64,000 nt of DNA from Haliotis asinina (lineage: Eukaryota > Mollusca > Gastropoda > Lepetellida > Haliotidae): contig NC_090290.1 in assembly GCF_037392515.1 (NCBI RefSeq), forward strand, positions 25,627,753 through 25,691,752. Direction: 5' to 3'. Positions 206-45,920 of this stretch are shown here, in pieces. How positions within the stretch are numbered: position 1 is the first letter of the stretch; the number at the start of each line of letters is the position of its first letter. The position numbers and the translations under genes are program-made. Under the pieces are notes generated by a model. The model made no database searches. It saw only the letters and a list, made by a program, of their open reading frames with translations, and was not told the origin of the DNA.

Positions 206-2990
206 ACAAACCTGCAGAGGTTGCAGATTCTTTGAATAGAGTCCTCCTTGGGGTACTTATAAGCATTTAAATGTTCTTTAAATTCTTGCGACAATTGTAA
301 CTATATTTTTTCAATAAAAATATGTACAAAACAAAAAACATCGTTTTTGTCTTGTGTGACCACCCCTACAGGGCCCCTGGCCCCGTGACAGCCAAGAGCA
401 GGTAACTCTTCAGACTATAGCCTCCAGCAAAACACTTCTGTTCTGTAAGCAATACAGACAGAATGTGGGGAGGCAGGTGGCCGTACCCCAAGGAGGACTC
501 TATTCAAAGAATCTGCAACCTCTACAGGTTTGTTCGATTCTTTTTCATAGAGATCCTCCTTGGGGTACTTATAAGCATAAGACAGACTCCTAAAGACTGA
601 TCTTAGGGAGAGGCATTCTGTCTGCTCATAAACCTGACATAAGATGATAACCTTTATTACAAACTGAAAGTAACAAGGAATTAAACTTATCTGGTCACGT
701 GACCTTTTTGTGCCTTGCGGCGGGGGTGCGGACCAGGGCCAGGCTAGTACACGGTCTAACCCTACCATTCTACGAGAAAGCCGTAGGGTGCCTATAAAAA
801 ATTGGCTCCCCCCCTCTTTTTTTTTCAAAAAACGGGAGCCAGGACAGGCAACCGATATATTAAGTTCCATTCTCATGCACCGGCCAAGGTGCTAGGGAAG
901 GACTCAGAGAGTCTAGACCGGTAAAGCAAAAATACCACCACCATAATAGAGCCCACCACCGGGATAAAAGATGGAAAGTATACAGCAAGACACCACCACC
1001 AGTCTACTTGTTGCAGCTACAATGTCAAATGATCGTTCATCAATTGTGAGGGTAGCTCAATCGGCTAGGGCACTCGTGCCATGCCCACTGGTGAGAACTT
1101 ACTGGCCAAACCGAGCACGCTCGCTTGACAGTCTGTCTAACTGGTAATGACGGATGAACGTGCTCAGTTGGTTCCAAATAGCCGCAGAGCAGATCTCCTC
1201 AATGGGCAAGGCAGATACATATGCCTTAAACGTTGCCACAGCCCTGACCGAATGAGCTTTCAAACCCTCAGGGGGCGTACGACCTTTTGAGGTGTATCCC
1301 ATACAAATGGCAGAGACAAGCCACCTAGATATGGTCTGCTTGTTCACTGGAAGGCCAGCCTTGCCGCCACCATAACAGCAGAACAATTGATCATTCTTCC
1401 TAATGTCTTTTGTTCGCTTGGTATAAGCCTTAAGGGTCTTACGGACATCTAAGACGTGAGCATGTCGAAAAGAGGTACCGGGCGGTGAAGGCTGCATGAA
1501 AGTAGGGAGGTCAATAGGCGCTGTTATGTGAAAGGTGCAATCTCTCTTAGGACGGTAAGTATCTGGCAATCGAATACTCACTCTGTCTTTGTGAAACCGC
1601 CACAAGAAAAGCAGTCTTCCATGTCAACAGCTGGAGGGACAGAGCCGACAGATTGTGAAAAAGAGGACAGGACAGCCAATCAAGAACGACTGGTAAGTCC
1701 CACGGGGGACTAATCTGCCGGACAGACGGACGGATTCTGTCTACGCCTGCAAGGAAGCGCTGAACTAGAGGGTGCTGCCCCAATAATGCACCATCGACAG
1801 GAATGTGGAAGGCAGAGATTGCAGTGGAGTTACCTCTAACTGTAGAAGCGGCCAGACCGGCTTCCAGTTCAGATTGTAAAAACTCCAACACAGATACTAG
1901 ATCTGCAGAAAAGGGATCGAGAATCCCCCTGTCGACACACCCATCTATCCTCATATTGAACGTTCGTCGAATCCCTCTGTGAAGCCAGAATTGTGTCTGC
2001 AACTGGTGCAGGAATTCCTCTTGCATGGAGGCGACTCCGGACAGCGGCCAAGCCACCCACTGAATCCTGGGATTCGGGTGTGGCGCTCCGTTCTGGGATA
2101 GTAAGTACGGTCAAAAGGGTAATAGAACAGGAGGCTGAGCCAGAAACCTGAGAATTACCGGAAACCAGCTTTGAGCGGACCAAAGCGGTGCCAAAGGCAC
2201 AAGTAGCCGAGCCATTCAACCAGGCACCTTAGACATACGTCGTGAAGGTCCTTGGCCAGGATAGAGGATTTGCATGTTGAGCAGGATTTAAACTGCAAAG
2301 CAACAAATAAGCCCTAGTGTTGTGTAATGTAACAATAAATGAAACAAAATACACATGGGCGCAAAGCTAAATAACTAAAACTACCCACGTAGTTAAGGTA
2401 AAAGCTAAGTGCCACTACACCATAATTTACGACAAATTTGTAGTAAATATGGAAATAATATGGAAACAGTATTAATAAAATACATGAAACAGTATAGCTG
2501 ACAAACGCTTACTTTAAAAAGACCGCCCTAAAAACTTAAAAGTTTTGGCGGAAAAAAGGTTGCCTTCCACCATTATGCCAGCCACGTGGCTACCAACAGG
2601 GACAGCAAAAGTTACAACATTTTGACAAGTAAACTGTAAAAAATGATTCCTAAGGCGCCCATGCGTCTAATAAAGAAACCATACATACAGTTTGAGTCTC
2701 TGAGTTACTCATCTTAGTACTTGTCTTGTGTTTCTTAGAAGCAAGAATCTCTGAATCGCTGTAGCACGTCTCCACAGGGGGCGACAGAAAAGGAAGCGTT
2801 TTGCTGGAGGCTATAGTCTGAAGAGGTACCTGCTCTTGGCTGTCATGGGGCCAGGGGCCCTGTAGGGGTGGCCTCATGATGTTTTTTGTTTTGTACATAT
2901 TTTTATTGAAAAAATATAGTTACAACTGTCGCAAGAATTTAAAGAACATTTAAATGCTTATAAGTACCCCAAGGAGGATCTCTATGAAAA
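206..2990 (-). mobile_element. DIRS-type (tyrosine recombinase) retroelement, broken copy
   Basis: The minus strand between about 1100 and 2220 encodes a region resembling the tyrosine recombinase of DIRS/Ngaro-like retrotransposons: a stretch around LPVVLDWLS, then an RTKD block followed by KQTISRWL, AHSVRAVA and a C-terminal IWNQLSTFIRHY. The last block matches the family's R..H..R..Y catalytic tail in spacing. Inverted repeats flank it: about 239-446 is repeated in inverted orientation at about 2796-2984, and 206-257 is inverted again at 488-540. DIRS elements are known for inverted ends and an internal complementary region, which fits. I see no reverse transcriptase here, so the copy is internally deleted as well as decayed, with several breaks. 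It lies in the direction of, and probably inside, an intron of the Pro-rich gene at 3074-5533. Repeat arms still match closely, so it is probably not ancient. Confidence 0.7.
239..446. repeat. Inverted repeat arm of the DIRS-like element (left)
   Basis: This segment begins with the terminal motif tcctccttggggtacttata and matches the reverse complement of about 2796-2984 over roughly 190 bases with few differences. A further short copy of the motif lies near 548-575, and the flank 206-257 is inverted at 488-540. This gives a nested set of inverted repeats at the left end of the element. Confidence 0.75.
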
Positions 2991-26289: not shown

Positions 26290-26623
26290 TGACCGTTCTG
26301 CCTCGTCAGAATGACGACAGGTGGAGCGACCGTGCGATCCGGATCCATAGGAACTTCCTCCCTGACTAGGTTCAGCTGCATTTGTTGGCCTTGGTCGCAC
26401 CTCCTCTGAATCTAGTCCCACAAGTGTTCTATCGGGTTTACGTCTGGACTGAGAACAGGCCATTGGAGAGTTTATATGCCGTGTTGACGGAGAATGTCTC
26501 TAAAGGCCCTGGCAGTATGGGCACGCACGCTGTCCTGCTGCAAGACGTGGTTTCCATGACTACCAAAATGTGGCACGACGAAGGGTCACAGCGATTGATC
26601 AATGTAGCGGCAGATGTTACGTG
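26290..26623 (-). pseudogene. Tc1-like transposase, C-terminal half
   Basis: Reading the minus strand in one frame gives RNICRYIDQSL, then PFVVPHFGSHGN, QQDSVRAHTARAFRDILRQH and the diagnostic WPVLSPDVNPIEHLWD. This is the second half of a Tc1/mariner DDE transposase: the middle Asp in QQD..R.H and the NPIE...W block with the third acid. The copy is decayed; I see stop codons between DQSL and PF, after RQHGI and after HLWD. The N-terminal half of the catalytic domain is 4.7 kb away at 31370-31860 on the same strand, separated by the element at 26624-31369. Confidence 0.8.
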
Positions 26624-27339
26624 GGCCAGTAGAAAATCCCACAATTAAATTAGACCTTAAATTATCAAAACTGCAATTACCGTAGCAATTAATTTCGTAT
26701 ATGACAACTTAAGGTGCTCCTTCGCAGAAATTCTATTTAATAGGGAAAAACTGTACAATATTTTTTATTGTTGATCTACATATGTTTGTATCTAAAATAA
26801 TTATACCACAGTAAATACTTTTATAACCTAATATTCCTTGTATAAAATGACAACGCATGAAAAAATTCCAAAAATGGTGCGTGAACGTTTCAGTCTGTTA
26901 ATAATGCATAATTAATTGCATGAAGGATTTAGTAAAGGAATTTTAATGGCTTCAATTGACATGTAAGTATTAACTACATTAAATTAATTATCAAACAATT
27001 AATATGTAAACTTTTACTGATGTGATTGGCCAACGGAAAGGCACTACACGATGGACAGTTGTCTTTTGCCTCGGGGTAGGGGGTTTCAATTATTTAAAAC
27101 TATGTTCCCCAGTCCGGGCAAGTAGCCAGGCACATGGACGCTATGCCCAATTTTATTTTGAGTGCTTTTGAAAGAACTTCAAAATTTATCATGTTTTGAA
27201 ATCCAAGTGCAATGCATCATTTTGTAACAAGTATTTGTTGAGAAAATAATTATTACTTAATCAATAGTTAATTTCCTTTGCCACTGACATGTTAAATGCT
27301 ATGTTCAAGACCAACCACCTATATTTTTTTAAATTCCAG

Positions 27340-27615
27340 ATGATGCTAAGTATAGCTGTGTCCTGTGTGGTGTTGATGGAGCTAATGTCAAACTGTCTTC
27401 AAAAGGACTATCATCTTTGATTTGCAGTATCCATGAAACGTGAAGATAACATCTACACTCATATTTCCATGAATACAGACCACTTTGTACATGAGAGCTG
27501 CAGGAAGACTTACACAGCAAAGAACATTTCTAAAGCTAAAGCTACCAACACCCAGTCAGCTTCCACAGGTCAAACAAACCAAAAGGGTTTTGCGAACACT
27601 GGGCACAAATTTTAA
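27340..27615 (+). pseudogene. Cys/His-rich N-terminal region of the nuclease-like protein
   Basis: Frames here contain CVLCGVDG … KLSSKG and, further on, HISMNTDHFVHESCRKTYT. A Cys-x2-Cys pair followed by His-x3-Cys at this spacing suggests a zinc-binding module, which I recall at the N-terminus of this family. The unit is interrupted here. Confidence 0.5.
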
Positions 27616-27769
27616 GTTTGATACTCACTGTTAAATTTGTGCTGAAGAAATTGATTTTGTTAAAGGTCGTCGTTATCCTTGCCTTGCAGAACTTCTTGTC
27701 AGGACGTGGTAGAAGTGACACTAATACAAGAAATGAGGACACAGCCAACAGCATAGCTTTTTCCTTCTT

Positions 27770-28690
27770 ATGCAGCTGGTTATCCTTTCAACAGGACAGT
27801 CAGTTCACCATACAGGATTTGCAGAGCATTCTAGCATCAAATCTTCCAGCATCAAACATCTGAAGCGCCGACCCCTGGAACACTTTGGTGCAAAGGTAAC
27901 TATCTCAGAAGTTGATAGAAGGGCAAATGTTGTTACTTTTGCTGACAAAGCAGCTACAATTCTCCCAGATTCTTATCACGAAGATGACATTGACAAAGAT
28001 GATGCAATGCAGCAAGCCAGAAAATTGGGATGCCATATTAGAAAAACTTTGGAAGGCCTCAAGAAGACTGATTTGTTTTATCCTTCACCTCAAAATACTG
28101 ACATTGATAAACTTGAGAATGCCATACCTGATGTTCTTCTTGTACCTGTCAGAGGTATGATGCGAAAGGTGACCACAGAAACTGCCTGGGAAAAACAACG
28201 ACTGGAAGTTATTTCTCTTTGTCATGCATTAATGCAAGCTTCAGCTCCAAATCCGCATCTTTCACCTCTGATGCTCTCCACAGGCCTTGTCATCCACCAA
28301 ACAACAAGATCCAGAGTATTGCTTAATGTTTTGTCAAGTCTTGGCTTTTCTCTGTCATGTGACCAGGTAATGGATTTTGAGAAATCAGCTGTAATGACTG
28401 AATCTTTTGAGGATCTTGCACCAGGAATCGAGGCAGCAGACCAAGGTGGTGGATTTTGTCAATGGGTGGCTGACAACTTTGATTACAATGAAGACACTGT
28501 CACTGGACATAATTCAACTCATGTCATGGGTATAATTGCTTGTCAAACCCTTGCTTCAAAACAAACAATAATTGTCCAGCGCAAGACGAAATCTTCTCCT
28601 GAAGTTGCATCTTCTGGTCATTTTGGTGATATAATACAACCCTGCAGGCAACTGAACAAAAACTTCATGTCCAAGATATCATTCCAGTAA
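27770..28690 (+). pseudogene. Nuclease-like element protein, middle region 1 (306 codons)
   Basis: A continuous plus-strand frame with balanced, coding-like composition, including KTLEGLKKTDLFYPSPQN and the GGGFCQWVADNFDYNEDTVT block. The phrase QW.ADN.D.N..T..G.N..H.MGI is, as I recall, a conserved core of this multi-copy family; it resembles an RNase H-like Asp-bearing segment, but I cannot establish that. It lies between the Cys/His region and the 583-codon segment. Confidence 0.6.
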
Positions 28691-28938
28691 CTTGAACCAG
28701 TTGAGATTGAATTTTTGGAAGAGTACATAAAGCTAGACACTCTATGGATGCTGTCAAATGGTCTTTTCCAAGTATCCCCGAGCTGGCAAGGTTTCATGGC
28801 AAAAATCACTGATGGTGAATGTTTGTGCTCTTCAATTGTGTATCATCCAATGATACCTCTAAATCCTCAAACAAGCGAGGCTGTACATGGCACCCTGGTT
28901 TTCATTGACAAAGACAGAAAGCTAAACAGTGTTGTGCA

Positions 28939-30690
28939 ATGCTGACCTTAGATCAAGCTCTTTATGCTAAGGCATACAGAATAAAAGCGGACAATCCTGT
29001 TGAATTTCAACATGTTCAACTTCGACTTGGGGGTTTTCATCAGCTGATGTCCTTTCTAGGGGTTGGTTGTAAGGCTATGGAAGGTTCTGGACTACATGAA
29101 GCTTGGGCAACAGTATATGCTCGAAAATCCATCCCAAAAATGGTGGAAGGAAAGACTTATACAAAGACACTTAGGGCATGTCTTCTCACAAGTGCTGCTT
29201 TGCATGTACTTCTATTGATGCCTGAAGCAGATATTGCTGAAGAAGATCATGGAGCTGAATTTGAAGACAACTATGATTGTTCAAACAGTCAGAATGAAAC
29301 ACTGCAGAATGGTACTCAAAGAAGCCAAGAGGAGGACCAGATGTTCACAGAGCTTGAAGTCACGAACAAGCAGCTTATGCAACATGAGCAAACAATCATT
29401 GATGTTATAAACAGCAACAGAATGACAGATGCATTATCCAGATTACAAAGTGCAAAGCATAAAGTGCAAGAATCAAGGACTGCAAGTTTGTGGTTAAATT
29501 TTCTGGACTTTGTGTCAGTTGTCTGTATGTTCATCAGAGCAGAGCACACAGGGAACTGGCAACTTCATATGAAAGCATCACAAGATATGCTACCCTGGTT
29601 TGCGGCTACAGGACATAACAACTATGCCAAGTATTGCCAACTGTATTTACATGATTTCAAAAACCCATGTCCATGCCTTGAACATCCTCTGAAAAATGGC
29701 CTTTTCACAGTCCGTCGTAACAGCAAGCTGTTCTGGAGTGGTACGTGGAGTGACATGGCCATAGAACAGTCTCTGATGAGGGCTGGAAAGACACCAGGAG
29801 GGCTCATCAATATCACTCACAGGGAAGGTGCAAGGGCCAAGTGGCTGTTGTCAGCACATGTGACCGCTCAGTATACTGATTCCTTGAGAGCCTTGACCAA
29901 AACCACCAACAGCTCATGGTCAGAACAGCATCATGAAATGAAACTGGGACGAATCCATCAAGGCTTTAATCATATGCAGACCAACCTTCGCTACTTCAGG
30001 ACCCACAACCCATTTCAAGGTGGAGACAATTCAGAACTTAGAAATATTGCCACAGGCCTGATTGCTGATGAGTCAATGTTGACCACAGTGATTGGCATTG
30101 GTATTGCCATTCACGATAGTATTTCCGGGAAGAACTTTGGAGATGTGATACTAAAGAAAAGCAAGCAAGCTATTACGTTTGTTGTGATGAAAAAGGCAGT
30201 GAATTTAAAATATGGTGAAAAAATTCACATGTCTTCTACTGAGATGTACCAACGTCTGTTGTTAATTGCCTATGTTTCTGGACCTCCACCTTCATCAGTA
30301 TTTAGCTTTGAACTTGCATCTGTCTCACCAGCTCTTTTCCATGAAGATGGCACAAGGCGAAAGTCCCAGAAGTCGCAGCTTTCACAGTACATCATAAAGA
30401 TGAATCCTAACACTGTGGTCTCTGGTAACATCGTCTCTGGAGTGACTGTTGTTGATGGCTGTGCTGTGCTTCAACAAATGAAATGGCCAAAAATAGGCAC
30501 TCTTCATGATGTGTGTCTGGCTTATACCAACACATTAGAACACAAAGCAACAGATGGGTTTCCTCTTCTGGTAGAGTTTAACAGTTATGAAGTTCAGACA
30601 ACTAAGGAACTTGAGCAGAAGCAACACCGACTAATGAAAGACATTGATGCTGATGTGATGGTTACATCAAAAAACACCTGCACCATCTGA
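28939..30690 (+). pseudogene. Nuclease-like element protein, middle region 2 (583 codons)
   Basis: The longest non-repetitive frame in the window. It opens with a conserved-looking block: RLGGFHQLMSFLGVGCKAME, then SGLHEAWATVYA and KMVEGKTYTKTLRA. Further on are WLNFLDFVSVVCMFIRAEHT and WQLHMKASQDMLPWFAATGH, then DMAIEQSLMRAGKTPGGL. These phrases recur, as I remember, in uncharacterised proteins annotated in some databases as CXC domain-related. No transmembrane segment or signal peptide is visible. The length and freedom from stops suggest recent activity or selection. Confidence 0.65.
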
Positions 30691-30773
30691 TCAAAGCAGT
30701 TTTCTCGCCAACAAGAGGAACAAACAGAGTATTATCAACCTATTATCTGAATACCTCAAGGATACAAATATCT

Positions 30774-31082
30774 GTGTACAGCATGCAGGAAGAGAAAGCG
30801 GATGCAGATGCTGTAATTGTTAGAGAGGCATTCAGGTTTTCTGAAACAAACAACACAGTTCATGTTGTTTCAGATGATACAGATGTCCTTGTTTCGTTGA
30901 TGCACCGTGTCGAACCCCAATGTGATGTCTATATGAAGACGAGAACACATACAATATCAATACAAGCAGCACAACCTTCCATTGGTTATCAGCAGTACCA
31001 GTTGTTGCCCTTCTTGCATGCTGTCTCTGGATGTGATACTACATCTTCTGTATTTGGCTTTGGTAGTTTCCTCAACCATTAA
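30774..31082 (+). pseudogene. PIN/FEN-like nuclease domain
   Basis: Within 102 codons are three acidic clusters in the order expected of PIN/FEN-type nucleases: EKADADAVIV, then VVSDDTDVLVSLMHR, then LHAVSGCDTTSSVFGFG. In FEN/XPG nucleases the corresponding motifs (E-A-D, D-x-D, G-x-D) bind metal ions. The assignment is from motif order and spacing only. The frame ends soon after the third motif, earlier than I would expect for the family, so the C-terminus seems lost here. Confidence 0.6.
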
Positions 31083-31369
31083 TTAAAATTTCTTTTTCTC
31101 TTATTACAGAATATAGCGTGTTACCAAACTGACAAATAATTACCATCATCTCTTTAAAGGCATCATGATAAGAGCTTTCCCCCCAAAATCGTCTATTCCT
31201 TTCTCAGCCAACTTTGTCCCCATATATATATGATGGTGAAAAACATAGTTGCCAGAGGTTGATTTTGGTTGGGTTTGGCATGATGTAAGAAAATATGTTC
31301 ATAATTCATTTTAATAAGAAATTTGTCTGTTATCGAAAATGTCTAGGTCTTTCAATATTTCTACTGGCC

Positions 31370-31860
31370 TATACACCATTTCCTCTACCAGGACCAATAT
31401 TCTGGCACACCATAGGGCATAGTTTGTGATTGAGAGCAATAGCACCCCACACATTATGCTCGGACCTCCCCATGAGTCTCGTTCCAGGACACAACAACCC
31501 ATGCTTGCCATAAAAGGCGACTATTCCTGTCGTAAGAGGCGACTAACGGGATCGGGTGGTCAGGCTTGCTGACATGGTTGGGACGTGTCATCGGTTCCCA
31601 GTTGCGCAGATTGATGCTCATGTTGTTGATCACTGGATTGTCTGGTCCAGACTCGATCATTTACAGACTGCCACCATATAGCTGAAATATTGCTGAGTGC
31701 GGCGTAAAACTAAACTCACTCACTCACTTTCCAGGACACAATCATCTGCAAAACGCTCCCCGCGTCGTCGCCACACTCTCACTCTGCCATCAGCCGTCGA
31801 GATGCAATAGTCAGAGAAGACTAAAGTCTGCTACTCCTGCAGTCTGTGTAAACTTAGTGT
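31370..31860 (-). pseudogene. Tc1-like transposase, N-terminal part of the catalytic domain, interrupted by a SINE
   Basis: The minus strand encodes VFSDYCISTADGRVRVWRRR, then GERFADDCVLERDS and WGGPSIMCGV. This is the Tc1 region VFSDE.RF......RVWR..GER......V.....GGGS+MVWG, with the first catalytic Asp in FSD. A SINE at 31498-31727 splits it and its 12-bp target duplication TTCCAGGACACA restores the reading when removed. It continues in the same strand and order at 26290-26623 across the 4.7-kb element. Confidence 0.8.
31498..31727 (+). mobile_element. SINE S1 inserted in the Tc1-like gene
   Basis: Sense-orientation copy: head acccatgcttgccataaaag, body ggatcgggtggtcaggcttg, tail gctgaaatattgctgagtgc and cggcgtaaaactaaactcac ending in a (tcac) run. 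It is flanked by TTCCAGGACACA on both sides (about 31486-31497 and 31729-31740), a long perfect target duplication, so the insertion is fairly recent. Confidence 0.9.
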
Positions 31861-32089: not shown

Positions 32090-35000
32090 TGCCCAGGACG
32101 CCTCACGGCACATACTAAGAAAGCCACATACAAAAGCCACCGCCACAAAAACCAGCACCAGCCATGACATCTTCAAAACCACAAGACAAAAAGTCCGACT
32201 CAGGAACACCTGAACCGATTCTAAAGCCAGAAACAGAAACTGTACGACTGAATAGAGACACCTACTATGGCTAACGCAGCGTTAGAAACTGTCACCCACC
32301 CACCCTTTACAGGCACCAGTCGAGATCTGTTACTCCAATGGAATTGGGGAGGACGTAGGAATAATTTCAATGAACCACGGCTATTGTGGTATTGCGGTTT
32401 GTCTCCAAGACACCTACCTAAAGAGGACTGACATGCGTCGGTACTGTTCCTACCACTCCTTTCCTCCTCCTGCTGTTAAAGCCACACGACGTACTCCTAT
32501 CCTGGTGAGGCAGGACAACATCCATATCCCCGTTCTATTCAACACCAACCTACAGACTTTTGCTTATGACTTATGAGCATAGGGTTTACAGTATGTCCGT
32601 TTTATATTCCTCCTTCTTCAAGCGTACGCCGATCTGATCTTCAGAACTTATAATGATCAATTCCCGAAGCCCTGTATGGGCGACGTAAACGACCATACCC
32701 TCTATGAGGGAGTATTTCACTAACAATAAAGCAAATGTTCTTGACAATTTCACTCAAATAATGATCTAAGCATCTTCAACGATGGATCAATCACTTATCT
32801 CCACCTTGCCACTGGAACATCTACCACTTACGGGGATTCTAATATTTTGAACGAGTTTGAATGGTCAGTCCACGGTTACCTTTGGGAAGTGACCACGTCT
32901 CAAAAATTCTTACTCCTATCAATCCCACTGATAAGCCAAAATCAACAAGATTAAATTTTACTAGGGAAAACTGGCCATTATATCGAAACTGTCTGCCCTG
33001 AAAAACTTAACTCGATAATTTCAGGAATGTGCCTGATCCCAATGGAACTATTTTCAGACCTCTTCAATGCTTTTTAGAGACGAAACTATACATACGTTCC
33101 CTGGAAAACCGCACATACGCAAACCATTGTTTTATAAAAATTGTAAACGAGCAGGGAAAATAAGCAGAATTTAAATATACTTCAGTCAACACCCAGACGT
33201 GTATAACCTGAATTCAGTCAAAACGTCAATATGCGTGAGCAAAATGAGCCTTTAAACAAAGTAAACCTCGGTCACACAGGAAGGATTTCTCCAAATTAAA
33301 TTCCCGCACACACATGCACAAGAAGTGGGGCATGATTCCAAAGATTAAGTTCAAAGGATAAAAATGTGGTGTTCGCCATCTCAAAGAGTCTTTTTTAACC
33401 AATAAATCTGAAATAGCAAACTGACTTGGCGAAACTTTGGCAAACCATTCCTCAACATCAAATTACACTTCTCAGTTCGAGGTACGAAACTCAGCAAGAA
33501 ACTCAACCAGTCTCTCTGATAACGGTTAGGATTACAATGAAACGTTCTCTCTCCGTGAATTACGCACTGCCCTAGGCTCGCGACTCTGCGGAAGGAACTG
33601 GTGATATATATTATCAGCTTCTGAAACGGCTGCCTGATTCATGTTTGGAAACACTACTCAATATATTGGATGATATGTGGACAACTGGAACTTCACTCCT
33701 TCATGGCATAATGCCATTGTCATGCAATTCAAAAGCCACTGACCATCTGATGAATCTGGAATTCCATTGTCAACAAACAACACACAGGATCCATCCTTTT
33801 CGATTTAGAAAACGGCACATGGTAGAATGTGGAAACCTGGTATATTAAGAGATTAACATGAATTTGGGTCGAGGGACACATTACCGCTGTTAATATCTCC
33901 GCGGTTAAACAACAAACGATTTCAAGTAAGAATAGATTCCATACTGCTTGATTATTTTCATCAAGATCAGGGCACCATCTTGCCTGTCTCGTATTTCAGC
34001 ATCAAGATCTTGGCGCCCCCCTCTCAAGGCACCATCTTGCCTGTCTCGTATTTCAGCATCAAGATCTTGGCGCCCCCCTTTCAAGGCACCATCTTGCCTG
34101 TCTCGTATTTCAGCATCAAGATCTTGGCGCTCCCCTCTCAAGGCACCATCTTGCCTGTCTCGTATTTCAGCATCAAGATCTTGGCGCCCCCCTCTCAAGG
34201 CACCATCTTGCCTGTCTCGTATTTCAGCATCAAGATCTTGGCGCCCCCCTTTCAAGGCACCATCTTGCCTGTCTCGTATTTCAGCATCAAGATCTTGGCG
34301 CTCCCCTCTCAAGGCACCATCTTGCCTGTCTCGTATTTCAGCATCAAAATTAACAGCCTCAGTAATGTTTTGAACATTTGTCTTGATGGGTCCCTTTTTG
34401 TGAATGATGTCTATATTTCATGCCGTGGTAAGAATATGCGCGAAATAGAAAGGCAGCTACAACAAAACTTTAAAGAAATGGGTCAATGTAAATGGCTTTA
34501 AGTATAAATAATCTGAAACAAATTATATTCACCTTTTGTATTCACCACACAAATAAGATCCAGGCCAATCTTGGTACTCCCAAAATAGAGGCCAAACAGA
34601 AAAATGTATATCCCCAATCAAGGCCTTTGGCACTGTCTGGGTGCTTTTTGGACCTCTCAGATGGACAGCGTATATGCGGAGGACAACGAACCTCTCCTTG
34701 AACAGCGCCGCATTTAACATTCACGGCAGTATATCACTAAATTACGTTGGAATCAGTCCAAATTAGGTATTCAATTGTGTTTTAACCTTCTCTATGAAAC
34801 CAATTTACTACTCTGCCAAGCCTGGTTCCAGCAGTTGGAATCCAAATTCAACCACACATATCTGCAGCTACCATGGATCTGAATATCATAGCACCCTAGG
34901 ACCTTATGGAGAAAAGGGAAACCCAGCGAGGAAGAAATATACAACATGAACTGAAACCAACAGTTGGTTATACCTACTTGGGTCGTCACTGAGGACGTCA

Positions 35001-40016: not shown

Positions 40017-41696
40017 CCTTAGGCGATCATTTAATATCCTCTAAATAATGTTAATATAAAATATCGAGGTGGCAACAGAAAGTTCGGCATTGTGATGTCA
40101 CAATCGTTGGAGAACCTAGCTTGGTTACACAACACTCGTTAAAAGCTTTCAGCTGGTTACATAACACTTGTTTCAAATAACCAATATCTCATAAAGATCG
40201 ATATTCAGAACGCGTGTGTAATAGAGAACGTCAAAGAACCCAGGCTTTTCTTATTAATATGTAGACTTCTGTTCTGAAGCTACCCTCCATGGTAAGGCAA
40301 CCTCCTCGTTGTGGGTGCTGGGTAACGGCAATAGATTTTCATCCCTGTGTGGACCCGGGGTCGAATAGGTCCACAGCACCCCATTGTTGGTTGCATGAGG
40401 CAACCAAACTGGGCAACCTATTTGGCGTGGGATGCGTCCCTGTGTCGGCAGAGGAAGGGAGTCTAGTGTTTTAGGATGACGGAAACGGCACTAGTGTTCA
40501 ATAATCCAGCACACCACTTCGACCCTAACTTGACCTAGGCGGGTGGTAGAATAGGACCGATTCTACCAATCGCATGGTCACGCCGTGCCCTGAGCATGGA
40601 ACACTTATACAAAATTTGGCATAGCATAACACCTTTGAACTGTGCAGACCCATGCAGAGACGGTGGTGGCTCATGAGCCAATCTGGTGATGATGACCACC
40701 GATTACTGTACGTCACCAACTGATTGTCACTGACGGAACTATGCTGATCTTTGATCTGGTAGACATTGCTGGAGTACAACACCCCCATATCCCTGGCCTT
40801 TGCAGCTCGGGGATCCGAAGCAAAGTAAGATCGTCACCGTTTACCCTCCATGGAGGGTGGGGAGGTGGTGGTGAACCATATCCCAAACAACGTGGCTTCC
40901 CAACACCACGGTTCAAAACGAAGACACGCCGACTCCGACGAGAGTACGATCTGACTACTGGCCACGCTTCCTCATCACTGAAGCGTGTGACAAGCAACCC
41001 ATGCAACCGAACCCTTTTGCAATCTCCAAGTGTATCGCTGTTATCTGCGGTTAGGTTTCCTGTCTCGCTAAGCTCCGATCCGGCTCGCTCCTGACAAAAT
41101 ATACTCGGAGACAACAGTCCTTAAATCTGCTCAGAATAAAAGAATTTGTCAATATCAAGGTTTCAGTCTCAGCGGACAAAACACTTAAGTCGTGAAGAGG
41201 CATTGTACGGGACAGTGGTCGATGCCTGTCTCACATGACTGAAGAATAAATTGTCACAGCTGTAGGACGATCCATTTCCTAGAAGGACGGTATTGTTCAA
41301 CCATCAACCAACAAACACAACAAACACAAATATCTCTTTGCATTTCCGCGAGCAAAGATTCTTGACTCGATTAAAGTTGATCATTGCAGCATTATCGTGG
41401 GGGTGTACGCCCCCAATCACTCCGGTGTTACAACTGTCAAAAGTTTGCACCTGGATCCATGTCCTGTCGTCCTCTGCTGTCTGCTACCGTTGTGGTGACA
41501 ACCATAAGGGCGATGACTATACCTAGGAAACGAAATGTCCAAACTGCGGTGGTAACCATATGGCCTATTCCAAGTCTTGTTTAGTGTGACAATGCTAATC
41601 ACACATTCTAAAGATCAAACATAAAGAAAATATCTCCTTTTACGAAGCTAAGAAGAAGGTTGCAAGTTTAACTGTAACCCATGCAACCATCACCTA

Positions 41697-42985
41697 CTCC
41701 CTACACCTTCTGTGACTACTGCAGCTATCTCGTGCTAGACCGATCTGACATCGGTCACATCTTCTGTCGTCTCCCGTCCTTCTGTCACTACTGCAGCTAT
41801 CTCGTGCCAGACAGATCTGACATCGGTCACATCTTCTGTCGTCTCCCGTCCTTCTATCACTACTGCAGCTATCTCGTGCCAGACAGATCTGACATCGGTC
41901 ACATCTTCTGTCGTCTCCCGTCCTTCTGTGACTACTGCAGCTATCTCGTGCCAGGCCGATCTGACATCGGTCACATCTTCTGTCGTCTCCCGTCCTTCTA
42001 TCACTACTGCAGCTATCTCGTGCCAGACAGATCTGACATGGGTCACATCTTCTGTCGTCTCCCGTCCCTCTGTGACTACAGCAGCTATCTCGTGCCAGGC
42101 CGATCTGACATCGGTCACATCTTCTGTCGTCTCCCGTCCTTCTGTCACTACTGCAGCTATCTCGTGCTAGGCCGATCTGACATGGGTGACATCTTCTGTC
42201 GTCTCCCGCCCTTCTGTGACTACTGCAGTTATCTCGTGCCAGGCCGATCTGACATCGGTCACATCTTCAGTCGTCTCCCGTCCTTCTATCACTACTGCAG
42301 CTATCTCGTGCCAGACAGATCTGACATGGGTGACATCTTCTGTCGTCTCCCGTCCCTCTGTGACTACAGCAGCTATCTCGTGCCAGGCCGATCTGACATC
42401 GGTCACATCTTCAGTCGTCTCCCGTCCTTCTATCACTACTGCAGCTATCTCGTGCCAGACAGATCTGACATGGGTGACATCTTCTGTCGTCTCCCGTCCT
42501 TCTGTCACTACTGCAGCTATCTCGTGCCAGACAGATCTGACATGGGTCACATCTTCTGTCGTCTCCCGCCCCTCTGTGACTACAGCAGCTATCTCGTGCC
42601 AGGCCGATCTGACATCGGTCACATCTTCAGTCGTCTCCCGTCCTTCTATCACTACTGCAGCTATCTCGTGCCAGACAGATCTGACATGGGTCACATCTTC
42701 TATCGTCTCCCGTCCTTCTGTGACTACAGCAGCTATCTCGTGCCAGGCCGATCTGACATCGGTCACATCTTCTGTCGTCTCCCGTCCTTCTGTCACTACT
42801 GCAGCTATCTCGTGCTAGGCCGATCTGACATGGGTGACATCTTCTGTCGTCTCCCGCCCTTCTGTGACTACTGCAGTTATCTCGTGCCAGGCCGATCTGA
42901 CATCGGTCACATCTTCAGTCGTCTCCCGTCCTTCTGTCACTACTGCAGCTATCTCGTGCTAAACCGCTCTGACATGGGTCACATC
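41697..42985 (+). repeat. 72-bp coding minisatellite in LINE ORF1, about 18 copies
   Basis: The 72-base unit (tatctcgtgccagacagatc … actactgcagc) encodes a 24-residue Ser/Thr-rich repeat, SVTTAAISCQADLTSVTSSV plus VSRP, in the frame continuing the ORF1 region. Another frame gives a 454-codon frame with Cys/Tyr-rich repeats, and the minus strand is open as well. Variants such as cagtcg for ctgtcg and agcagc for ctgcag recur at regular intervals, so multi-unit blocks were duplicated. Confidence 0.95.
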
Positions 42986-45920
42986 TTCTCAGCCCATCTC
43001 AACCAATCTATCTCCAGAACCAACAGAACCAACGTCAAAACCTGAAACCGAGACTCTGCGCTCAAGAGAGGAAGGAAAGGGGGAAAATAAACTACAGAAA
43101 CTAAGGCAGCCTGAGCAACTGCCAAACCCCGTCGAAGTCCATAACTCCTTTGGACCTCTGGATATGAAGGTCACTCCATCTCCACCTGACACAAACAGAA
43201 ATACCTCATACGCTACCACACGCTCACGTGACATATCACCAGTGGGAGCACCATGAAGCCACAAAACATGATTCAATGCAACTGCAGTTATTGATCCAAG
43301 ATTTTATACGAGCTGCCTTTTGTCTCCAAGAAACCTACTTAAAAAGAACTGATAAATTTTACAGCCGTCCTTACCGTTCCTACCATTCTGTTTCTCCTCC
43401 CGGTGTAAAACCTACAGGAGCCCTGCATAATCATGGGCAATATGAACAGTCATAACCACCTATGGGGGAGATCTTCAACGATGGCTCAAACACTTATCTC
43501 CATCCTGCCACTGGAACCTACTCTGTTCTTGACCTATTATTTTCAGATTCTAATCTTCTAAACGAGTTTTGAATGGTCGGTCCATGATGACCTTTGTGGA
43601 AGCGACCACTTTCTAACAACCCCGCGGATGAACCACTTTCAACAAGACGGAATTTTACTAAGGCCAGTTGGCCATTATTCCAAACCCTATGTTCTGAAAA
43701 CCTTATTTAAACCTGACAATTTCAGAAATGTTCCAGATCCCATGGAACTATTTTCAGACGTCTTAATGCCATTGGAGACAAAGCCATTCCCATGCCCTCT
43801 GAAAACCCACACATGGTTTTATGCAAACAAGCAAGAAAAAAATAGGAAGAGGGCGGGACATAATTTCCGACACCATCCTACTGCGCATAACCTAAATGCC
43901 GTTAAAATGACAAATGCCGTGACCAGACGTACCTTTAAGCAAACTAAACGCAGGTCATGGTGGAACTACGTGTCCGAAATCAACTCCCGCACACCCATGT
44001 CCAAGGTGTGGAACATGATTCAAAAGATTAAGGGCAAAGCATCCAAATCTGTTGTTCTCCATCTCAAAGATGATAACTCTATTTTAACAAATATATTTGA
44101 GTATTTGTATGCAAACAAACTTGCTGAAGCTTTGGCCAACGACTCCTCATCAAATTATAACCATATGTTCCCGAAATACCAAACCCAACAAGAAAAGAAA
44201 TTAGTCAATTTTAACTGGCAAGAATTACAACGAAACTTTTTCTTTTGACGACTTATGTACTGCCCTGCATGGGCAGACTTACGACGCTGCGGCAGGAGCT
44301 GATGATATTCATCCCCCTGATTCAAGCTAAGAAACTCTACTCTGTGCATTTGATGTCATTTGGACAACCGGAAATCATCATCATCCCTATAGCAAAGTCT
44401 GTCCGGGATCATACTAATCCCTCAACTACCGTCCTACATCACTAACTAACTTGTGTTTGTAAAACAATGGAACGCATGGTGAACAATCGATTGATATTGT
44501 CCTTAGTGACCTCCAATGAGGTTTCCGAAAGAACCGAAGTACCACTGACCATCTAGTGAGTCTGGAATCATTTATAGAAAATTCCATTGTCAACAAAACA
44601 TGTTGTATCTGTCTTTTTCGACTTAGAAAGCCTTTGGGATCTCTCCGGTAGACAGTCTATATGCGGAGCCTAACAAACCCTTCCTCGAGCAACGCGATCG
44701 CACTGCAATATATCACTAAATTACGGTCAAATGAGTCCAATCCAGCATACAACTGTGTTTCCAAGCCTCTACGTAAAAGCACATTTCCTAAAGTGCCAAG
44801 CCTGGTTCCACCATTTGGAATCAGAGTTCAAACACACATATCTGCAGCTAAAATTGATCTCAATATCATAGCATCTTATCGGCTTCTATCTTCGCCACCC
44901 TGGCAGATGGTGAATCCACAGATCGATCTTGCCATTACCAAACTCAAAAAGTCAGAAACAAACCCTTTGGTGTTCCAACAGGAAGACAACCAGTTACGAT
45001 CCAAGTATATAACACTCATAGATCCATTTTCACTCACGGAACCAAGGATGATGGCCAAGTTGCCAGTGCTACAGTCATTGGACCCAAGACTGTCCCATCT
45101 AGAATCCCAGACAACAGTTCCATCTTCACCGCCCAGGCCAAAGCTATAGTCACAGCTTTGACTTATATAAGATACCAGAGCCATTCAAAAAATTTCATCG
45201 TGTTTACAGATTCATAATCCTGCCTGCACTTCAAAATGCTACTTCAGGTCACCCTATCATCCTGGACATTTTACAACTTTACAACGATCTTTCTACTGGC
45301 CTGTGTGACATCGTCCTCTGCTGGCTGCCAATGCCGCAGCTAAAACAGTTCTTGACAAGCCCTTATCTCCACTACTGATAGCGTACTTCCACTTCAAACC
45401 CACTATCAAAAGTTATACTGCTGACCTCATGCAAAAAAGGTGGGACACCCAGGTAGGAAGAAATAAACTTCATGAACTGAAGCCAACAATTGACTATACC
45501 TACTTAGGAGTCAGTCAAGACGTGATGAAGTTTTACGACGATGCCGTATTGGCCACAGCCGTTTTACCCATGCCTAGATGCTGAAAACGGATGGTGATGG
45601 GCCTCCCATGGGTATCGCCTGCAATGAGGTGTTCACCATCAGGCATATTTTGCTTAACTGTGTGGAGTTTTCAACTGCAAGGACCTCCCGTTATGTTGCG
45701 AGAAATCTTAGAGATCTGTCTTCTCGTGTGAGGGGGCACCTGATCTAAATTTCCTGAAGGAAGGTGACCTACCTCACAAATTGTAGTTTCATGGGGAGAA
45801 TAACGAATTGCTTTTTTATCCAGTGCTATAACATCTTCTGTTTCTAAATTGTGGTGAGATGAAAATATATGTTTTGTGAGTTTAGGACCATGTACTTAAA
45901 ATGGTAAGGGATGCAAACCA

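Follow-up and report, generated by a model that had tools for sequence, protein, structure and literature searches.

A dead transposon nested in a Tc1-like element of Haliotis asinina, probably of the AcademX lineage

DDD/E enzymes typically leave target duplications that are short and constant in length. Tc1/mariner elements duplicate TA and Kolobok elements usually TTAA. The Academ superfamily and its AcademX lineage (Repbase) are reportedly to be credited to Kapitonov and Jurka 2010 and Kojima 2020. In the portion of PMC10045372 consulted, AcademX is described as carrying a nuclease and generating 3-4-bp target duplications, and AcademH as carrying a helicase and generating duplications of 9-10 bp. 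Curated bivalve Academ elements have a mean length of 5,565 bp, and nearly all occurrences of Academ in the sampled molluscs are in bivalves; in the consulted part of that source (PMC10294476), Haliotis is met only within a reference title. A DDD/E transposase paired with an accessory nuclease is also described, in the excerpt used here, for KolobokE, KolobokD and KolobokP (PMC9587614). Our literature searches found no paper on Academ together with XPG, none on an XPG-nuclease transposon with terminal inverted repeats, and none on DUF6589; among the titles listed, which in the broadest search were 15 of 966, none concerned Academ elements of abalone.

Here we describe a 4.75-kb insertion (26622-31371) inside a Tc1-like transposon of the window, that is, of the whole 64,000-nucleotide stretch of H. 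asinina DNA that was analysed. Matches to egg lysin likewise point to an abalone host. The insertion is probably a dead, internally deleted cut-and-paste transposon of the Academ superfamily, AcademX lineage, an assignment that likens it to AcademX by published description.

Ends and insertion site

The locus consists of the following features (window positions):
26472-26617, reverse strand: one half of the Tc1-like transposon (LQQDSVRAHTAR)
26618-26621, no strand: TACG, left copy of the probable target duplication, with one mismatch to the right copy; empty sites read TACA
26622-26671, forward strand: imperfect left terminal inverted repeat, starting TGGGCCAG (family terminus TAGNCCAG); the same left end is seen in the sister C14 copy (L003)
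26672-27339, forward strand: 5' non-coding part of the element, from sister comparison
27860-28933, forward strand: N-terminal transposase-like part with the candidate first D (VADNFDYN, 28466-28489) and an in-frame stop at 28690, from tblastn to intact relatives and motif positions
28909-30690, forward strand: 593-aa open frame matching Pfam DUF6589, with candidate D/H/E motifs and the first half of the PIN/FEN-like region
30654-31082, forward strand: remaining half of the PIN/FEN-like region, read in a different frame (EKADADAV, SDDTDVLV, SGCDTTS)
31083-31371, forward strand: non-coding 3' region plus the right terminal inverted repeat, which ends in CTACTGGCCTA, common to sister copies up to 31371/31372
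31372-31375, no strand: right copy of the probable target duplication, TACA, from empty-site loci
31376-31542, reverse strand: other half of the Tc1-like transposon

An earlier, sequence-only reading had proposed a mobile element at 26624-31369, bounded by GGCCAGTAGAAA and its exact reverse complement and splitting a Tc1-like transposase on the other strand. Both bounds are present, at 26624-26635 (forward strand) and 31358-31369, and the mobile element is real, with a true span of 26622-31371. The split is borne out by empty sites: 22 of the 23 uninterrupted Tc1-like loci run across the junction with a single TACA. The two halves were identified from their motifs and from their many copies; a Pfam scan of these short fragments gave no transposase match. 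The further proposal that such an inverted match is very unlikely by chance holds only in its context. By itself the 12-bp match is weak evidence: a third exact copy of GGCCAGTAGAAA lies at 45290-45301 (reverse strand), and the same 7 kb contains further exact inverted pairs of 12-13 bp. What makes the match significant is its position, together with the sister copies. All three of these share the right boundary (31371/31372), and their homology stops there with no shared sequence beyond; the left end is seen in one of the three.

Coding content of the window copy

The region 27340-31082, previously taken as a single coding unit, falls into three open frames (27737-28690, 28909-30690 and 30654-31082), interrupted by the stop at 28690 and by shifts near 28935 and 30690. 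Between 26671 and 26672 the window copy lacks about 0.94 kb present in the sister C14 copy, and it is without the C-terminal CXC-like part. It is an old, broken and internally deleted copy, unable to make the protein.

A conserved region with D, D, H and E residues (27860-30600) precedes the PIN/FEN-like motifs in the same protein and is, from its motifs, probably a DDD/E transposase; the earlier statement that no other transposase is seen between the ends is therefore probably wrong. Within the 593-aa frame, the candidate second D lies in TLDQALYAKA (28945-28974), GGFH within 29026-29061, and the candidate E in SDMAIEQ (within 29746-29790), followed by the first half of the PIN/FEN-like region with VVDG (30448) and a degenerate VEFNSYE (30568). 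All three acidic motifs reported earlier in PIN/FEN order were located within 30792-31049, namely EKADADAVIV (30792-30821), SDDTDVLVSL (30870-30899) and AVSGCDTTSS (31020-31049).

The order of the acidic motifs is that of FEN/XPG nucleases and serves here as the likeness; a homology to these enzymes would rest on this order. A comparison with an XPG profile is weak (E 0.053), and a reversed control scored close to it. Sequence searches of the PDB returned no FEN/XPG protein, the best matches being a ribosomal protein, a viral capsid protein and designed barrels. Single-sequence structure models reached mean pLDDT values of 34.9 and 34.8, too low for use in fold assessment. A genome search with Pfam XPG_I gave nine matches, five of them above cut-off; none falls at a listed position of the window family, and three host exons among them align over EAEA...EDSD.

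The Pfam DUF6589 match of the window frame scores 29.8 bits, against a cut-off of 27. In Pfam scans of its relatives the cut-off is reached by none of six open fragments from the sister copies, the match is absent in two distant members, and the intact proteins P0001-P0003 of families A-C (see below) do not match; one family A copy gives E 0.085, below cut-off. Elsewhere in the genome, a RecQ-like helicase adjoins 7 of 14 DUF6589 loci. Compared directly, the family shows only weak similarity to these helicase-flanked loci (best E 0.019), and BLASTP and hhalign found nothing between them. Of the three top matches of a reverse HMM search, one was taken as chance, its alignment lying outside the shared motif. 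Two frames of DUF6589 loci do line up in register with the family at the candidate E. These observations raise the testable idea that Pfam DUF6589 is an Academ transposase.

Intact relatives and rival readings

Three related families (A, B and C) are found in the same genome in near-identical copies, which are young relatives of the dead window copy. Their open frames (1,489, 1,452 and 1,077 aa) can be aligned to the window copy across the transposase-like region as well as the nuclease motifs, five acidic blocks being conserved across all three, and the intact proteins end in a CXC-like cysteine cluster. In P0001 the candidate D, D and E are D448, D607 and E876, and the putative FEN-like region covers residues 1101-1321. 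Terminal inverted repeats are present in families A, B and C and in the window family, with TAGNCCAG-type ends on the former three. The elements are approximately 6.0-6.8 kb long. The earlier reading had called for a search for copies with both ends about 4-6 kb apart; relatives with ends about 6 kb apart do exist, and they have target duplications. An exact 3-bp duplication flanks 14 of 19 copies (11 of 342 in a control of mismatched left/right pairs) and a 4-bp duplication one further copy; the remaining four, among them the window copy with TACG/TACA, have no exact duplication. The duplicated sequences are varied 3-mers, e.g. AAA, GTT, ATC and CAA. The earlier view of a multiplied family of DNA transposons with terminal inverted repeats thus agrees with the shared ends, empty sites and copies. 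A search of phages and viral contigs found no relatives. We also note one precise head-to-tail dimer (C3) with a shared TA, its junction reading CTGGACTAGTTCAG.

A chance inverted match around a coding region that is merely part of the host's own genes or a fragment of another element has practically no probability left: inverted pairs of similar length do occur in the region, but the empty sites and the shared ends refute this reading. Very improbable, too, is the earlier proposal that the PIN/FEN-like protein itself acts as transposase in a novel type of element. Families A, B and C all retain its acidic motifs, and Pfam attaches no transposase name to the protein; however, most of the protein consists of another conserved acidic region (D...D...H...E), which lies ahead of these motifs, so that the nuclease is not supported as the catalytic protein and is unlikely to be the sole transposase. 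The short duplications of fixed length likewise point to a DDD/E enzyme, and the data can be explained without a new element that moves by a PIN nuclease alone.

More weight is due to a separate, undescribed cut-and-paste superfamily that resembles AcademX in layout and does not descend from it, a reading we nevertheless hold to be unlikely. It draws on the fact that the likeness to AcademX is known from description, that intact members match no Pfam transposase, and that among the members tried only the window frame meets the DUF6589 link, the direct comparisons being weak; the lack of DUF6589 in six sister fragments and two distant members lowers the odds of Academ and raises those of this alternative. 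Against it, the order of the domains, the apparent type of nuclease and the length of the duplications fit AcademX as printed in the consulted part of PMC10045372, the window frame exceeds the DUF6589 cut-off, and the two DUF6589-locus frames are in register around the candidate E. Marginally less probable again is a superfamily of its own, marked by TAGNCCAG-type ends, duplications of 3-4 bp and a protein combining transposase, FEN-like nuclease and CXC cluster, Academ-like in layout only and possibly passing through a joined-end stage, the latter suggested by the single precise dimer with its shared TA.

Under the preferred AcademX assignment, the D/D/E region would act as a DDD/E transposase, binding at the TAGNCCAG ends and cutting with a stagger of 3 bp, sometimes 4 bp. 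The FEN/XPG-like domain may trim flaps or donor ends in excision or repair, and the CXC-like cysteine cluster may bind DNA.

Comparison with known transposons and nucleases

The duplications, being varied 3-mers and not TA, speak against membership in Tc1/mariner, and Kolobok is likewise rejected, as a TTAA duplication was not seen. KolobokE, KolobokD and KolobokP share with the window family the probable pairing of transposase and nuclease, but their nucleases have other folds and TTAA is absent here. With FEN1, XPG and EXO1 the family has in common the order of acidic motifs, and XPG_I host exons align over EAEA...EDSD, whereas an HMM gives no significant sequence match. Families A-C offer material for asking what role a FEN/XPG-like nuclease has in transposition.

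The window frame matches DUF6589, as do the helicase-flanked loci that look AcademH-like. AcademH differs in having a helicase in place of the nuclease and printed duplications of 9 or 10 bp (PMC10045372, consulted part). Pfam scans of four window frames and of the proteins of families A-C gave no helicase at E up to 1, and the duplications are of 3-4 bp, which rules out a helicase-type Academ for the window element. A multiplied protein family that the earlier reading knew as uncharacterised is now recognised as a probable transposon, for which the ends, the target duplications and an empty site are described. Families A-C, at about 6.0-6.8 kb, compare with a mean of 5,565 bp for bivalve Academ elements, and the host is a gastropod, in contrast to the near-exclusive occurrence in bivalves given in the consulted part of PMC10294476; the presence of long open frames in near-identical copies in a gastropod qualifies that statement. 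With AcademX, as described in the portion of PMC10045372 consulted, the family shares a probable transposase and a putative nuclease in one element, a 3- or 4-bp duplication and terminal inverted repeats. Since architecture and duplication length match the published AcademX, the kind of element is probably one already known.

Insertion boundaries and decay of the window copy

In the 1.14 Gb genome carrying the window (on contig C11), GGCCAGTAGAAA is found at 26624-26635 of the window and its reverse complement at 31358-31369. The sequence-only reading regarded a 12-bp inverted match within about 100 bases of both break points as very unlikely by chance. The bare 12-mer is not striking: the 7 kb around the element contain further exact inverted pairs, 12-13 bp long, and a third exact GGCCAGTAGAAA occurs at window 45290-45301(-), where no similarity to the element's ends is visible outside the word itself. 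What makes the inverted pair real is its context. A genome search with window 31083-31440 yields 41 matches, the best of which have the element's end in common and stop at 31371/31372; most others consist of Tc1-like sequence alone, from 31372 on. Compared with the joined flanks of the element, 22 of 23 Tc1-like loci (from the 24 loci L011-L034, L017 being omitted because its match lies inside the element) are continuous across the junction, with a single TACA. The structural insight of the sequence-only reading, a nested insertion, was sound. Since TACG precedes and TACA follows the element, the simplest reading is a 4-bp target duplication with one change; the alternative is the 3-bp TAC plus one extra base.

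The window copy is dead. Its sister copies on contigs C12, C14 and C1 show 82-92% identity over aligned blocks and have the right end in common, the left end being located for the C14 sister only. Relative to the latter, ~0.94 kb is absent behind the left repeat of the window copy and ~0.8 kb before its right end. The second gap takes in the C-terminal cysteine cluster, still present as a remnant in the C14 sister. The frame is disrupted by a stop at 28690 and by shifts near 28935 and 30690.

Other features observed in the window and the genome
Window 1099-2110(-): overlapping open frames resembling the tyrosine recombinase of a mobile element, as read from the translation only
Window 33857-34501 and 41678-43045: arrays of tandem repeats in which both strands carry long open frames
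C14:26671878-26961594: cluster of Pfam Egg_lysin matches (8 in the genome, 7 above cut-off), a family known from abalones and related snails, which makes an abalone the probable host

Related families and their target duplications

The protein query has at least 95 matches in the genome, a lower bound, as 74 of 240 candidates were scored. Three families with long open frames (A, B and C) contain copies up to ~99% identical to each other; their proteins P0001-P0003 share 29-33% identity with the 593-aa frame of the window element.

Termini and open frames of the window family and its relatives
Window family: left TGGGCCAG/CAGGCCAG, right TAGGCCAG
Family A: TAGGCCAG; P0002, open frame of 1,452 aa
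Family B: TAGTCCAG, in the dimer TAGTTCAG; P0001, open frame of 1,489 aa
Family C: left TAGTCCAG, right TAGACTAG; P0003, open frame of 1,077 aa

Many family B matches to the left-end query (TAGTCCAG) start with its very first base, and many to the right-end query run to its final bases. Target duplications were tallied for 19 copies with both ends each, namely 13 of family B (one of them a dimer), three of A, one of C, the window copy and the C14 sister. Outside the tally are the sisters on C12 and C1, for which no left end was located, an unpartnered family B right end (L099) and further unfetched matches to the end queries. An exact 3-bp duplication flanks 14 of the 19 copies, and one more shows 4 bp only (TATA); in the control, a 3-bp match occurs in 11 of 342 mismatched left/right pairs. 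No exact duplication was found in four of the 19: family B copies at C5:33502311 and on C9, the window copy and the C14 sister.

The dimer (C3:54064374-54075944; L090, L091, L092) consists of two family B copies head to tail, joined through a common terminal TA (CTGGACTAGTTCAG) and flanked by a single outer 3-bp duplication TGT. Its halves (L061, L062) are identical across 4,092 bp. A pattern search tolerating at most 2 mismatches yielded no further CTGGACTAGTTCAG junction. The structure is either an intermediate with joined ends, a tandem duplication or an artefact of the assembly, and this one precise dimer is among the points of remaining interest.

Conserved motifs of the encoded proteins

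The aligned proteins share a block comprising VADN...HGMGI (first D), TFDQ (second D), RLGGFH (H) and TDxxxEQ (E). RLGGFH thus puts the H between the second D and the E, reminiscent of the C/DxxH signature noted for several superfamilies (PMC10045372). The D, D, H and E are candidate catalytic residues. The proteins end in a CXC-like cysteine cluster, whose matches to Pfam TCR and preSET_CXC are weak and below cut-off (E 0.057-0.48).

Behind the D/D/H/E block follow YVLDG, IVFDGY, DAD or EAD, (E/D)DTD and GCDTTS; the order of such acidic blocks is that of FEN/XPG nucleases. In the window copy the second block reads VEFNSYE, a degenerate form, and in a distant member GADNT replaces GCDTT. Over the corresponding stretch, three host exons matching Pfam XPG_I, presumably XPG-, FEN- and EXO-type, read EAEA...DDSD, EAEA...EDMD and EADA...EDSD. 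Motif order and register fit a putative nuclease, but with weak statistics: hhalign gives E 0.053 and a probability of 1%, one of 200 column shuffles matched that score, and the reversed alignment reached 15.5 versus 17.0. PDB sequence searches found no nuclease, the window element's family is not among the genome matches to Pfam XPG_I, and two single-sequence structure predictions, both of window sequences, were uninformative (mean pLDDT below 35).

Probable relation to the Academ superfamily

According to PMC10045372, AcademH elements encode a helicase and generate 9-10-bp duplications, and AcademX elements encode a nuclease and generate 3-4-bp duplications. The layout of the window element and its relatives, with nuclease motifs and 3-4-bp duplications, resembles AcademX and is the main support for the Academ link. 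The new, nuclease-driven element proposed from sequence alone is not needed; the window element is old and defective, and most likely belongs to AcademX.

Second and weaker support comes from Pfam DUF6589, which reaches 29.8 bits in the window frame versus a cut-off of 27. The genome holds 16 DUF6589 matches, grouped into 14 loci. The strongest adjoins a helicase frame (DEAD box E 3.5e-17; RecQ zinc-binding just under cut-off), which, searched back against the genome, gives 26 matches grouped into 15 loci. At seven of the 14 DUF6589 loci the opposite strand carries a helicase match within ~4 kb, oriented towards the DUF6589 frame in six cases and away from it in one (four of the seven helicase matches are weak, E 1.8e-6 to 3.5e-5); none was found beside the other seven, window included. 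This co-occurrence suggests that the genome probably holds the helicase arrangement too. L105 (C14:16774900-16780900) and the six other loci that pair DUF6589 with an opposite-strand RecQ-like helicase are probably AcademH elements.

Several results speak against a transposase shared between the nuclease lineage and the helicase-flanked lineage. Pfam scans did not detect DUF6589 in P0001-P0003, in two distant members or in any of six open fragments from the three sister copies, and one family A copy gave no better than E 0.085. BLASTP and hhalign between the lineages found nothing. An HMM of six nuclease-lineage cores ranked three DUF6589-locus frames first among 1,200 sequences, only at E 0.019-0.15, one of the three being aligned out of register. 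DUF6589 as a possible Academ transposase remains of interest, as do the near-identical copies with long frames in a probable gastropod, despite the statement in PMC10294476 that Academ is almost exclusive to bivalves among the molluscs sampled.
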